Source: Syntrophaceae bacterium (lineage in GTDB: Bacteria > Desulfobacterota > Syntrophia > Syntrophales > UBA5619). From it: a stretch of 36,881 bases of DNA. Below the pieces are notes generated by a model, which was given only the letters and a program-made list of their open reading frames with translations, had not been told where the DNA came from and searched no databases. Each line of letters starts with the position of its first letter. Positions within the stretch are counted from its first letter, which is position 1. Location: assembly GCA_003141195.1 (NCBI GenBank), contig PLLC01000093.1, positions 18,443-55,323 on the forward strand, written 5' to 3'. The translations under genes and the position numbers were made by a program. Positions 1-7,658 of the stretch are shown in pieces.

Positions 1-944
1 TCGAGGGACTCGTCCAGCCTGTGCCGGTCCCGGAAACGCATGGCGTAATAGGACAGAGGTGCGGCGACCATCCCGATTACCATAGCCGCCATAGGCGTCA
101 CATAGCCGGAAGCGGGGGTCACCGCTGCCAGACCGACGACCATCCCCGTGGCGATCCCCAGGGGGCTGGGCCGGCCATCCAGCCAGGAGAGCATCATCCA
201 GACCAGACCGGCCGTCGCGGCCGAGGTGTTGGTTGTCAGCAGGGCGTTCACCGCCACGCCGTTCGCAGCGAGGGCGCTGCCGGCGTTGAAACCGAACCAG
301 CCCACCCACAGCAATCCGGCCCCCAAGACCGTGAGCGGTATGTTGTTTGGCTCCATCGGAGACTTGCCGAACCCCTTGCGCGGCCCGATCACCAGCGCAA
401 AGGCCAAGGCCGAAAAACCGGCCGCGATGTGCACCACCGTTCCCCCGGCGAAATCAAGAACGCCCAGCGCCTTCAGCCATCCTCCCTGCCCCCAGACCCA
501 GTGGCACAGGGGATCATAGACCAGCGTGGCCCAGAGTAGGCTGAACAGAAGAAAGCTTTTGAATTTCACACGCTCGACGAAGGCGCCGGTGATCAACGCC
601 GGGGTGATGACCGCAAACATCATCTGAAAGGCGGCGAAAAGTCCATGCGGAACAGTCCTGCTGTAGTCCGGATTGGGCAGCGCGCCGACACCGTTGAAGC
701 CCAGGAAATTCAACCCGCCGATGATTCCCTGGATGTCCTCGCCGAATGCGAGGGAATAGCCATAGAGCAGCCATTGCACCCCGATCAGGGCCATAAAGGT
801 ATAACTCAGGGTCAGCGTGGAAAGGACGTTTTTCCGGCGGACCATCCCCCCGTAAAACAGCGCGAGGGCCGGCGTCATCAACAGAACCAGTGAACAACAG
901 ACCAGCACCCAGGCGGTGTCGCCCGCATTGATTGGATTCAGCAT
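1..944 (-). CDS. amtB: Ammonium channel AmtB (first copy, 3' end cut by window edge)
   Basis: The minus-strand frame from an ATG at 944 stays open to the window edge, giving 314 codons of an Amt/Mep/Rh-family ammonium channel. It begins MLNPINAGDTAWVL and carries family landmarks: LFYGGMVRRKNVLS in the first helices, WATLVYDPLCHWVWG, the first pore histidine in GGTVVHIAAG, and WFGFNAGSALAAN. The second pore histidine (GVHG) would lie beyond position 1. A purine-rich GGGGGGAAG stretch precedes the ATG. It is a clear paralogue of the channel at 5212-6447. A sigma-54 promoter lies about 50 bases upstream, so expression under nitrogen limitation is likely (inferred). Whether a PII gene follows it cannot be seen. 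Confidence 0.95.
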   Translation of the reverse strand, partial: MLNPINAGDTAWVLVCCSLVLLMTPALALFYGGMVRRKNVLSTLTLSYTFMALIGVQWLLYGYSLAFGEDIQGIIGGLNFLGFNGVGALPNPDYSRTVPHGLFAAFQMMFAVITPALITGAFVERVKFKSFLLFSLLWATLVYDPLCHWVWGQGGWLKALGVLDFAGGTVVHIAAGFSALAFALVIGPRKGFGKSPMEPNNIPLTVLGAGLLWVGWFGFNAGSALAANGVAVNALLTTNTSAATAGLVWMMLSWLDGRPSPLGIATGMVVGLAAVTPASGYVTPMAAMVIGMVAAPLSYYAMRFRDRHRLDESL

Positions 945-993: not shown

Positions 994-1009
994 AGCAATT
1001 ATCCTGCCA
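994..1009 (-). promoter_or_regulatory. Sigma-54 promoter of first amtB
   Basis: The minus strand reads TGGCAG-GATAA-TTGCT. The -24 GG and -12 GC are exactly 10 bases apart, as RpoN requires. Transcription would start near 983, leaving a leader of about 40 bases before the amtB ATG at 944. The sequence match is direct; activity is inferred. Confidence 0.8.
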
Positions 1010-1191: not shown

Positions 1192-1401
1192 TCAGAAGAG
1201 GCCCTCTTCCCTGATGCCGTAGCGCTCCTCCATCAACCGGGTCGATTCGAGATCCATCAATGGACCATACGGCTGCGGGACAGATTGCTTCCCCGGACCC
1301 GAAACCCCTCCGACAGGCTGTGCGTGGGACCCGTCGGTGGCACGGGCGTCGATATTGAACGCTTCGCTTCCAAAGATCCTCCGTTGCGAAATCATCTCCA
1401 T
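1192..1401 (-). CDS. Small protein of unknown family under a sigma-54 promoter
   Basis: This is a 69-residue ORF starting MEMISQRRIFGSEAF and ending YGIREEGLF. I do not recognise the family. The start at 1401 is chosen over an ATG 18 bases upstream because GGAGG lies 8 bases before it. The protein is soluble, slightly acidic and cysteine-free. A Gly/Pro/Ser/Gln-rich middle (PVGGVSGPGKQSVPQPYG) is followed by a likely C-terminal helix (DLESTRLMEERYG). A near-perfect sigma-54 promoter lies 68 bases upstream (1469-1484), matching the arrangement at both neighbouring amtB genes. That is the main reason to treat it as a real, nitrogen-regulated gene. It lies between the KaiC-like/PEP-binding gene and amtB1, all on one strand. 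A role in modulating ammonium assimilation is possible but only a guess. Confidence 0.65.
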   Translation of the reverse strand: MEMISQRRIFGSEAFNIDARATDGSHAQPVGGVSGPGKQSVPQPYGPLMDLESTRLMEERYGIREEGLF

Positions 1402-1468
1402 GGTCTGGACCTCCATCAACCACTTGGCTTAAAACGATCCTCAAAAGAATCGACTTTTCATTATGCAC

Positions 1469-1484
1469 CGCAAGAACGGTGCCA
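1469..1484 (-). promoter_or_regulatory. Sigma-54 promoter of the small protein gene
   Basis: The minus strand reads TGGCAC-CGTTC-TTGCG, a full TGGCAC -24 box with correct spacing to TTGC. The expected start site is near 1458, about 57 bases before the ATG at 1401. The promoter overlaps an inverted repeat, GCACCG-N6-CGGTGC (plus strand 1465-1482), which might be a regulator site. Confidence 0.82.
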
Positions 1485-1508: not shown

Positions 1509-1586
1509 GCAACATTCTGTATTTATTATTGTTGTGGTGTGTCGGGTCAGGCGGGACTTTTCAAGAAAAGGCAACAATATTGTACC
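1509..1586. promoter_or_regulatory. Candidate enhancer-binding sites upstream of the small-protein promoter
   Basis: ACAATATTGT (1574-1583), a perfect 10-base palindrome followed by ACC, lies about 120 bases upstream of the predicted start site. A related GCAACATTCTGTA lies at 1509-1521. A very similar ACAATTTTGTACC lies about 113 bases upstream of the amtB2 start site. The position fits sites for a sigma-54 activator, but the activator is unknown and the sequence is not the enteric NtrC consensus. Confidence 0.35.
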
Positions 1587-1925
1587 AGCTTTCAAAAGCG
1601 ACACAAAAGCGTTCGGACGCCCTTGAACAACGGGAAAATCATGGTCCTTCAATGCGCCTTCAACAGATGTCCTGAGCGCCAAAGGGACCGATTTTGAAGG
1701 GAAGAGATTTTAAATAATCCTCACCGCAAGGCTGAGCCAAAACTACCGATAAGGTGAAAGTCAATCAAGGCTTAATTCAACAAATTATAAAATCATAAGG
1801 ACGCATCAACCGGATGAACCAGAAGATGTTTGTTTTTGCTTGATTTGTTCGGAACCGTTTCAGTTTTACCAGGAAAATCCAGGATGGGACATTAGAATGT
1901 TCCGCCCTGTGGACGGGGCATTCAT
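1587..1925. other. Intergenic stretch, no gene seen
   Basis: This AT-richer spacer follows the KaiC-like/PEP-binding gene on the minus strand. No frame has both a start with a ribosome site and recognisable protein. An imperfect inverted repeat near 1890-1907 (GGACATT/AATGTTCC) has no T-run, so I do not call it a terminator. Confidence 0.5.
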
Positions 1926-4851: not shown

Positions 4852-5199
4852 TCAGCCGATGGCGATCCCACCCCGTTCGCCGGAACTGATCCGGACGCAA
4901 TCGGCGAGGTCCAGTACGAAGATCTTCCCGTCCCCCACCTCGCCCTTGCCACTCCGGGCGCCCTTGTTGATTGCGGCGATGGTCGGCTCCACGAATGCCT
5001 CGTTCACGGCAATGTCGAGCCGGACCTTCCGAAGGAGGCCGCCGACCTCCTTCGCCCCGCGGTAGATCTCCGTGAATCCCTTCTGCCTCCCTTGTCCGAG
5101 AACGTTGGAGACGGTCATCAGATTCACGTCCACCGCTTCGAGCGCTTGTTTGACCTCTTCCAACTTATGCGGCTGGATGATTGCAACGATGTATTTCAT
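4852..5199 (-). CDS. glnK: GlnK-type PII signal protein without the uridylylated tyrosine
   Basis: This 115-residue PII protein has normal family length and the normal start MKYIVAIIQPHKLEEVKQAL. PII trimers bind ATP/ADP and 2-oxoglutarate and plug AmtB. The T-loop reads GRQKGFTEIYRGAKEV: Tyr46 is present, but position 51, the tyrosine uridylylated by GlnD in enterics, is Glu, and Ser49 (the cyanobacterial phosphorylation site) is Ala. The C-terminal loop reads SGKGEVGDGKIFVL, two residues longer than usual before the conserved GDGKIFV. An AGGAGG lies 8 bases before the ATG and overlaps the amtB2 stop, so the two genes are translationally coupled 12 bases apart. Regulation by covalent modification at Tyr51 is therefore unlikely; regulation by effectors alone is inferred. 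Confidence 0.95.
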   Translation of the reverse strand: MKYIVAIIQPHKLEEVKQALEAVDVNLMTVSNVLGQGRQKGFTEIYRGAKEVGGLLRKVRLDIAVNEAFVEPTIAAINKGARSGKGEVGDGKIFVLDLADCVRISSGERGGIAIG

Positions 5200-5211: not shown

Positions 5212-6447
5212 CTATTCAACGACCGTATAGGCCGATTCACTCTGTTGGGTCAGGTCCAGACCGACGATCTCATCCTTCTTCTCCACCCTCATTCCGACCA
5301 GGCCGTCCACGACCTTGAAGATGATCCAGGTCATCCCGGAAGCAAAGATCGGCGCGATGATGATCAGCAGGAACTGGACAAGGAACTGATGCGGATTTCC
5401 GAACAAAAGCCCGTCCGCCCCGGCGGCGTTGACCGCCTTCTCCGCAAAGAGTCCCGTCGCCAGGGTTCCCCACATCCCCCCGACCCCGTGGACGCCGAAT
5501 GCGTCGAGGGAGTCGTCGTAGCCGAGCTTCGTCTTGATCAGAACCACGGCGATGTAGCAGAACAGGGCCACCAGCATGCCGATGAAGATCGCATTCATCG
5601 GGTTGACAAAACCGCAGGCTGGCGTGATCGCGACCAGCCCCGCGACGGCGCCCGTTGCCGCTCCCAGGATGGTCGGCGCCCCGCGATGGTACCATTCAAT
5701 CAGCGCCCAGGTGAGCCCCGCCGCCGCCGTGGCGATATGGGTCGTCACGAAGGCATTGGCGGCCAGTTCATTGGCCCCGAGTGCGCTTCCCGCGTTGAAC
5801 CCGAACCAGCCGAACCAGAGCAGCGCAGCGCCGAGGACGGTGAAGGGCAGGTTGTGCGGCCGAAACGGCTGCTGCGCGTACCCGCACCGCTTTCCCAGCA
5901 GGATTGCCAGCGTCAGGGCCGAGATCCCGGAACTGACATGGACGACGATGCCGCCCGCGAAATCCAGCGCGCCAAGGTTCCTCAACCAGCCACCCATCCC
6001 CCAGACCCAGTGAGCCAGGGGATCGTAGACCAGCGTCGCCCAAAGGACGGTGAAGATCAGAAAGGCCGAGAATTTCATCCGCTCCGCGAAGGCCCCGATG
6101 ATCAGGGCCGGCGTGATCACGGCGAACATCGCCTGGAAGATCATAAAGGCCTGATGGGGGATCGTCGCCGCGTAATCGGCATTCGGCTGGCCGCCGACGA
6201 AGTTGAGTCCCGCCCATTTTAGGCTGCCGATGATCCCCCATCCGGTATCCGGCCCAAAGGCCAGCGAATAGCCGTAGAGGACCCACTGCAGGCTGATGAC
6301 GCAAGTGATGATGAAACACTGCATTAAAATGGAAAGAACGTTTTTCCTCCGCACCAGTCCGCCGTAGAAGAAGGCAAGTCCCGGAATCGTCATTCCCAGG
6401 ACTAGGACCGATGAGGTCAATACCCACGCTGTATCGCCTGTATTCAT
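5212..6447 (-). CDS. amtB: Ammonium channel AmtB (second copy, complete)
   Basis: This complete 411-residue Amt-family channel has about eleven transmembrane helices. The pore twin histidines are visible as His170 (GGIVVHVSSG) and His320 (AFGVHGVGG), with WATLVYDPLAHWVWG and WFGFNAGSALGAN between them. It lacks a cleavable signal peptide, ending with a short charged cytoplasmic tail (RVEKKDEIVGLDLT). AGGAGG lies 8 bases before the ATG at 6447. It conducts NH4+/NH3 across the inner membrane and is expected to be blocked by the PII protein encoded directly downstream. A sigma-54 promoter lies about 105 bases upstream. Confidence 0.97.
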   Translation of the reverse strand: MNTGDTAWVLTSSVLVLGMTIPGLAFFYGGLVRRKNVLSILMQCFIITCVISLQWVLYGYSLAFGPDTGWGIIGSLKWAGLNFVGGQPNADYAATIPHQAFMIFQAMFAVITPALIIGAFAERMKFSAFLIFTVLWATLVYDPLAHWVWGMGGWLRNLGALDFAGGIVVHVSSGISALTLAILLGKRCGYAQQPFRPHNLPFTVLGAALLWFGWFGFNAGSALGANELAANAFVTTHIATAAAGLTWALIEWYHRGAPTILGAATGAVAGLVAITPACGFVNPMNAIFIGMLVALFCYIAVVLIKTKLGYDDSLDAFGVHGVGGMWGTLATGLFAEKAVNAAGADGLLFGNPHQFLVQFLLIIIAPIFASGMTWIIFKVVDGLVGMRVEKKDEIVGLDLTQQSESAYTVVE

Positions 6448-6552: not shown

Positions 6553-6568
6553 GGCAAGGGGAATGCCA
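6553..6568 (-). promoter_or_regulatory. Sigma-54 promoter of amtB-glnK
   Basis: The minus strand reads TGGCAT-TCCCC-TTGCC, with GG and GC exactly 10 bases apart. Transcription would start near 6542 and give a leader of about 95 bases before the amtB ATG. Nitrogen-limited expression is the usual logic for amtB-glnK. Confidence 0.8.
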
Positions 6569-6651: not shown

Positions 6652-6691
6652 ACAATTTTGTACCTTTCCCGGACCGTCCGACAAAAATGTA
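6652..6691. promoter_or_regulatory. Candidate activator sites upstream of amtB-glnK
   Basis: GACAATTTTGTACC begins at 6651 and GACAAAAATGTAG-like sequence lies at 6681-6691. Both are roughly palindromic and centred about 113 and 142 bases upstream of the predicted start site. The first closely matches the site upstream of the small-protein promoter at 1574. Between them, CGGACCGTCCG (6670-6680) is a perfect palindrome of unknown meaning. This region also separates the divergently transcribed adenylyltransferase gene. Confidence 0.35.
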
Positions 6692-6926: not shown

Positions 6927-7658
6927 ATGATCACGGATGAAGAACGGAAACGATACGCCCGCCAGATTCTGATGATCGGAGAGGCGGGACAGGAAAGGCT
7001 CAAGTTGGCGCGCGTCCTCGTCGCCGGCGCCGGGGGACTGGGAACGGTGATCTCCCTCTACCTGGCCGCCGCCGGTGTGGGCCATCTGCGGATCATCGAC
7101 TGCGACGTCGTCGAGACGAGCAACCTGAACCGCCAGATCCTCCACTGGAGCGGGGACGTCGGACGGCCGAAAACCGCATCCGCCGAGGAGAAGCTCGCCG
7201 CCCTGAACCCCCTGATCCGCATTGAGACGGTCTCCGGAAGAATCGCAGAGGAAAGCATCGAGGAAATGGCGGAGGGCTGCGACCTCATCGTCGATGCGAT
7301 GGACAATTTCCCGACCCGTTATCTGCTGAACCGGACCACAGTCGAAAAAGGCATTCCGTTCATCCACGGCGCCGTGCGGGGGTTCTTCGGCCAGGCGACG
7401 ACGGTAATTCCCGGGAAGACCCCCTGCCTGCGCTGCTTGTTCCCCAAGAGCCCCCCGCGGGAGGTGTTTCCGATTATCGGGGCGACGTGCGGCGTTATCG
7501 GCGCCATCGAGGCGACAGAGGCGATCAAGCTGCTCACCGGTCAGGGAGAGCCGCTGGCCGGCCGGCTTTTCCTCTGGGACGGCCTCGCGGGCAGCGCCGA
7601 TTCCATCACGGTCGAAAGGGATCCGTCCTGTCCCGTCTGCGGAAAGTTGAAGAAATAG
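6927..7658 (+). CDS. HesA/MoeB/ThiF-family adenylyltransferase
   Basis: This 243-residue E1-like enzyme activates the C-terminal glycine of a small ubiquitin-like carrier by adenylation. Visible features are the opening EERKRYARQILMIGEAGQ, the ATP loop VLVAGAGGLGT, the conserved ETSNLNRQILH, the Asp of VDAMDNFPTRYLLN, and two zinc CxxC pairs, CLRC and the C-terminal CPVC. The start at 6927 has GGGGAGG just before it. An upstream in-frame ATG (6738) would add 63 residues that do not resemble the family and is rejected. The MoaD/ThiS-like carrier gene follows 113 bases later, so the pair probably serves molybdopterin (Mo or W cofactor) or thiamine sulfur transfer. Sequence alone does not decide between MoeB, ThiF and HesA. 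Confidence 0.9.
   Translation: MITDEERKRYARQILMIGEAGQERLKLARVLVAGAGGLGTVISLYLAAAGVGHLRIIDCDVVETSNLNRQILHWSGDVGRPKTASAEEKLAALNPLIRIETVSGRIAEESIEEMAEGCDLIVDAMDNFPTRYLLNRTTVEKGIPFIHGAVRGFFGQATTVIPGKTPCLRCLFPKSPPREVFPIIGATCGVIGAIEATEAIKLLTGQGEPLAGRLFLWDGLAGSADSITVERDPSCPVCGKLKK

Follow-up and report, generated by a model that had tools for sequence, protein, structure and literature searches.

Among the described systems closest to the one analysed here, the 61-residue protein sP36 of Methanosarcina mazei is induced by nitrogen limitation, binds both AmtB1 and GlnK1 and is found where GlnD is lacking (PMC10714827). In cyanobacteria, glutamine synthetase (GS) is the target of the inactivating factors IF7 (65 residues) and IF17, which are made in nitrogen excess (PMC7760959), while PirA and PirC are small nitrogen-linked proteins partnering PII. 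Finally, sigma-54 nitrogen regulons have been described in related bacteria, for instance those of DVU3220 and DVU1949 in Desulfovibrio vulgaris (PMC3333781, PMC4641369).

Here, we compare these systems with a 69-residue protein encoded in a stretch of 36,881 nucleotides, hereafter the window, from a Syntrophaceae bacterium (assembly GCA_003141195.1, contig PLLC01000093.1, positions 18,443 to 55,323). Like sP36, it is small, linked by its promoter type to nitrogen limitation and tied to AmtB and GlnK in a setting where GlnD is absent or undetected. However, sP36 assembles into stable hexamers, and its fold is modelled with confidence (PMC10714827), whereas the small protein is predicted, from a monomer model only, to be disordered with one short helix; moreover, sP36 is under archaeal regulation, while the small gene has a bacterial sigma-54 promoter. 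The small protein may work like sP36, to which it is likened by description, not by sequence. With IF7 and IF17, it shares being a small protein of nitrogen control, but these are NtcA-repressed factors of nitrogen excess, whereas its own promoter is of the nitrogen-limitation type, and it has no Pfam or NCBIfam match of any kind. The likeness to PirA and PirC extends to PII, their partner, since the small gene is co-regulated with glnK, yet here too the small protein is without a family match. As for the Desulfovibrio regulons, the common trait is the control of an ammonium transporter and PII operon by an enhancer-binding protein; unlike in those regulons as described, the present locus features a tandem ACnnnnTTGT-N19-ACnnnnTnGT site derived here, of which the literature searched returned no description and for which the activator is only a candidate.

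A Small Protein Gene outside Known Families

The small gene (1192..1401, reverse strand) runs over 69 codons from an ATG at 1401 to a TGA at 1192, with a GGAGGT directly 5' of the start, and 68 bases separate this ATG from the end of its promoter at 1470. Both the good ribosome site and the distance had been anticipated by the original prediction, as had the position of the protein outside known families: Pfam, NCBIfam and PDB sequences (the latter by profile search) all yielded zero matches. An RNA element or riboswitch was rejected, as the region has no Rfam match and the stretch downstream of the gene folds no better than shuffles (z = −0.83).

Our search of relatives recovered the intact gene 13 times, in 12 genomes of a single Syntrophaceae-type family (genera g1 and g4), G003 having two copies, and remnants reduced to the tail in G007, G010 and G056. 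Conserved homologues, set beforehand as a test, are therefore present in relatives, and a frameshift check found none in the 13 copies, the three further loci being remnants only. A non-coding explanation, either an ORF arisen by chance or an RNA element, is highly improbable, even though the small gene is short, without known family, variable in its N-terminal part and reduced to remnants in three genomes. Indeed, start and ribosome site are common to all 13 copies, which measure 66–73 residues, changes over the last 14 codons are mostly synonymous (pS 0.60, pN 0.09 across all 13 copies), with variation mostly at third codon positions, and no Rfam match was obtained. The homologues and the codon pattern led us to reject a chance ORF, a reading already largely contradicted, and the 69-residue ORF, as judged from these sequences, is a genuine, previously unnamed protein gene.

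Intact copies were found in this family only. A class-level search of the same 155 genomes returned the same set plus one weak match within a longer frame (G122), a phylum sample of 395 genomes yielded it in the window's own genome only, and plasmids and viral contigs gave no match; on these grounds, a widely distributed gene or one carried by a mobile element was rejected. Those homologues that have named records come from Syntrophaceae or deltaproteobacterial MAGs.

As for the remnants, the one in G007 (C469; L080/L068) is an out-of-frame tail, EERHGIREEGIY and a stop, that comes after a porin-like gene carrying the tandem site and a sigma-54 promoter. G056 (C9; L035), from another family within the order, has only the tail left near 7088–7129; downstream of this remnant come a porin-like gene, amtB and glnK, with a promoter module of the same kind. 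In G010 (C150; L036), the place of the upstream part of the tail-only copy (6241–6282) is taken by the sequence that comes after a Proton_antipo_M (NADH dehydrogenase-type) gene; this copy could be a remnant or a 23-residue peptide.

Sigma-54 Promoter and Tandem Activator Site

The regulation of the small gene is the strongest result of our analysis. Its promoter, TGGCACCGTTCTTGC (1470..1484, reverse strand), is the sole zero-mismatch TGGCAC-N5-TTGC of the window and, as predicted, its best sigma-54 match; with one mismatch allowed, this pattern occurs eight times against 2.18 expected, a count reached by 0 of 100 shuffles. Upstream lie two activator half-units on the same strand, ACGCTTTTGT (1603..1612) and ACAATATTGT (1574..1583), exactly 19 bases apart. 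A tandem site (ACATTTTTGT-N19-ACAAAATTGT, 6652..6690, reverse strand) also precedes the sigma-54 promoter of amtB1-glnK1 (TGGCATTCCCCTTGC, 6554..6568, reverse strand), and the combination of both elements is found at these two places only in the window. In comparison, 0.01 tandem sites are expected per Markov-shuffled window, and none of 200 shuffles combined one with a sigma-54 promoter. The claim that both amtB genes have the same promoter type stands in that −24/−12-like elements occur at both, but the two are unequal, the tandem site being present at amtB1 only. Before amtB2, the internal sigma-54-like element TGGCAGGATAATTGC (995..1009, reverse strand) has no tandem site matching the pattern directly upstream and is poorly conserved: it is degenerate in G001 (L038) and absent in G005 (L041).

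Of the 13 copies, nine have TGGC-N7-TTGC 80–84 bases ahead of the start codon, each of them together with the tandem ACnnnnTnGT-N19-ACnnnnTnGT at about −199 to −212 (with a spacing of 20 in L032); four of them stand in an amtB2 context and five elsewhere. In a tenth copy (L037), the promoter is at −137, and the G009 copy has no recognisable sigma-54 promoter upstream. Where the gene adjoins unrelated genes, it is the promoter module, rather than the neighbours, that is the more constant feature.

Genome-wide (3.27 Mb), the tandem pattern occurs three times (0 in the reversed control), at the small gene and amtB1, both with a sigma-54 promoter, and at the gene of a 2539-residue FAD/Fe-S/glutamate-synthase-like protein, where no such promoter was found. 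Over the 21 family genomes, site plus promoter gave 15 matches and 0 in the control: the small gene (eight), amtB1 (four; G000, G002, G006 and G018), a porin-like gene, a GlnQ-like ATPase and a urtA-like binding protein, these last three being named by reading N-termini, without curated match. We take the genes sharing this module to be nitrogen-limitation genes, and for that reason infer that one enhancer-binding protein would act on all of them. The obvious candidate, from gene position, is the GAF-type sigma-54 activator encoded beyond glnK2, which adjoins glnK2 in the window's genome; in G003, a copy of it with 83% identity and the small gene are arranged divergently. With its GG-N10-GC promoter, its upstream activator sites and the occurrence of the same site at nitrogen genes, the small gene has the sequence attributes of a member of a sigma-54 nitrogen-limitation regulon, and its regulation of this type is well supported at the sequence level.

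Genomic Context and Candidate Partners

The window genes discussed here are all on the reverse strand. The window holds amtB1 (5212..6447; PF00909, E 2e-129), glnK1, encoding a PII protein that keeps the EIYRG tyrosine in its T-loop (4852..5199; PF00543, E 7e-25), and a second ammonium transporter gene, amtB2, cut by the window edge (1..944; PF00909 match at G000:C30:18445-19356). In the window's genome, the cluster reads amtB1-glnK1-[PPDK_N protein]-small gene-amtB2-glnK2-activator-glutamate-synthase-like protein-glnA, the part beyond the window (L073, G000:C30:6000-20000) comprising glnK2, the GAF-type activator, the 2539-residue protein and glnA. The PPDK_N-domain protein (4562–1926, reverse strand; 878 residues), the N-terminal stretch of which had first been called KaiC-like, has an 87%-identical copy near amtB1-glnK1 in G002 (L078, 5269–2636).

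That glnA belongs to this cluster, on the same strand some 12 kb further downstream and preceded by a TGGCACAGGTGTTGC element, raises the possibility that the small protein is a GS modulator, its tail docking on GlnA to stimulate or restrain it in the manner of sP26 or of the cyanobacterial inactivating factors. Small GS-binding proteins do exist (PMC7760959; sP26, PMC11957540), and G009 has the small gene and two GS-type matches without any Amt, but the linkage to glnA is seen in the window's genome only, and GS was not found in three carrier MAGs, all incomplete (G003, G017 and G019). Moreover, since a promoter of this type would have the protein made under nitrogen limitation, as opposed to the nitrogen excess in which IF7 and IF17 are made, a pure GS inactivator is unlikely, and we regard the GS modulator in general as unlikely too.

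The small gene is directly upstream of amtB2 in four genomes (G000, G001, G003 and G005). The window, G003 and G001 share this arrangement at 92–95% identity (blastn), with glnK2 following. In the window, the amtB2 ATG comes 247 nt after the small-gene stop, with the poorly conserved element in between, while in G005 (L041) this interval is only 13 nt and the two genes apparently form an operon. G013 shows amtB2-glnK2-tRNA-Gln(CUG)-small gene, and both a sigma-54 promoter and tandem sites precede its amtB2. In G009 as well as G013 (L031, 6249–6322; L033, 747–820), a tRNA-Gln (CUG) is the immediate upstream neighbour of the small gene.

In other genomes, the small gene stands beside unrelated genes, so that gene order is only partly conserved. 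Among carriers, an amtB next to the small gene is absent in several genomes, and no Amt at all was found in three of them (G009, G017 and G019; MAGs 79–84% complete). In a hand tally, the small gene occurs in 7 of 9 genomes with amtB2 and in 5 of 12 without, a weak and not decisive association, and its distribution singles out no partner. Such partial conservation would suit another task in nitrogen limitation, not directly connected with Amt, PII or GS, for instance that of an adaptor which delivers some protein to a protease; the promoter module also precedes the glnQ-like, urtA-like and porin-like genes, and a disordered body ending in a short conserved motif would fit an adaptor or a degron as well as it fits a regulator. 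Given the repeated linkage to amtB2-glnK2, we nonetheless hold this to be quite unlikely.

GlnD and PII in the Family

GlnD was found above the cut-off in none of the 21 family genomes, which gave only weak matches (model positions ~329–523), while the E. coli and Caulobacter controls were positive; homologues of 840–850 residues were seen in family f14 of the same order, although these too fell below the curated cut-off. Family members without the small gene likewise have no detected GlnD. Uridylylation requires the T-loop tyrosine of PII, and this residue is absent from GlnK2 (as read by eye).

The co-regulation and proximity of glnK also fit a PII ligand similar to PirA and PirC, which would be bound to GlnK in one nitrogen state and, once released in the opposite one, would target a third enzyme. 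Although PII-binding small proteins of a similar size class are known (PMC8092223, PMC7760959), no PII-binding motif is evident in the small protein, and the carriers G009 and G019 have only divergent PII matches and G017 none; we regard such a ligand as improbable.

A Variable Front and a Conserved Tail

The two parts of the small protein evolve differently. Over the first 50 residues, dN/dS ranges from 0.3 to 1.4 among the five closest copies, most pairs being close to drift. In contrast, the tail (DLESTRLMEERYGIREEGLF, residues 50–69; 1195..1254, reverse strand) follows the consensus D-x3-[RSK][LSF]MEE[RS]YGIxEEG[LIMV]F-COOH in the 13 copies (MEERYGIxEEG[LIM]F with few exceptions), and residues D50, M57, E58, E59, I63, E66 and G67 are invariant in all 13. 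The codon pattern indicates that the tail is under strong purifying selection. An AlphaFold2 monomer built from the 13-sequence alignment has a mean pLDDT of 57.9 and a sole helix at 51–60. According to this model, the first ~50 residues are probably disordered; it is consistent with a disordered body and a terminal docking motif, which it does not prove. A C-terminal tag common to many proteins (of the encapsulin-cargo type) was rejected, the tail occurring once in the window's genome.

Proposed Role of the Small Protein

From promoter, context and tail together, our leading though still tentative reading, somewhat short of an even chance, is that the small protein belongs to the nitrogen-limitation regulon and is a disordered docking peptide, the tail of which would bind a component of ammonium uptake or assimilation, most likely AmtB2 and/or GlnK2. 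Its effect on GS, PII or AmtB, a role which the original prediction noted as frequent among small proteins under nitrogen control, is something that we infer. Briefly, under nitrogen limitation, an enhancer-binding protein (the candidate being the GAF-type activator) would drive the small gene and the ammonium transporters. The product, mostly disordered, would act through its tail, a predicted short helix LESTRLMEER followed by YGIxEEG-L/I/M-F-COOH, which would dock on AmtB2 and/or GlnK2, and on ammonium upshift this docking would shut or tune uptake, in cells apparently without GlnD and hence without the classical uridylylation switch. Thus understood, the small protein probably fine-tunes ammonium uptake or assimilation.

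We rank AmtB2/GlnK2 first among the partners, GS second and another PII-linked or an unrelated nitrogen target after them, because the promoter type, the amtB2-glnK2 linkage and the lack of detectable GlnD fit the sP36 pattern, and because of the missing tyrosine of GlnK2. The AmtB2/GlnK2 reading is made less certain by the three incomplete carriers without Amt and by the co-occurrence tally; the lack of detected GlnD in non-carriers and the G009 copy without recognisable promoter also count against it.

A broader proposal, which we deem doubtful, is that of a new bacterial family of disordered small proteins, of which the near-invariant C-terminal tail (14–20 residues) would control ammonium transport or assimilation without GlnD, replacing the uridylylation switch, with an origin independent of the archaeal sP36. 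For uncultured Syntrophaceae, the tandem activator site would offer a simple means of reading the nitrogen regulon, and the small protein is a concrete, testable candidate, in a lineage apparently without GlnD, for the not yet settled route by which the nitrogen signal reaches AmtB and GlnK.
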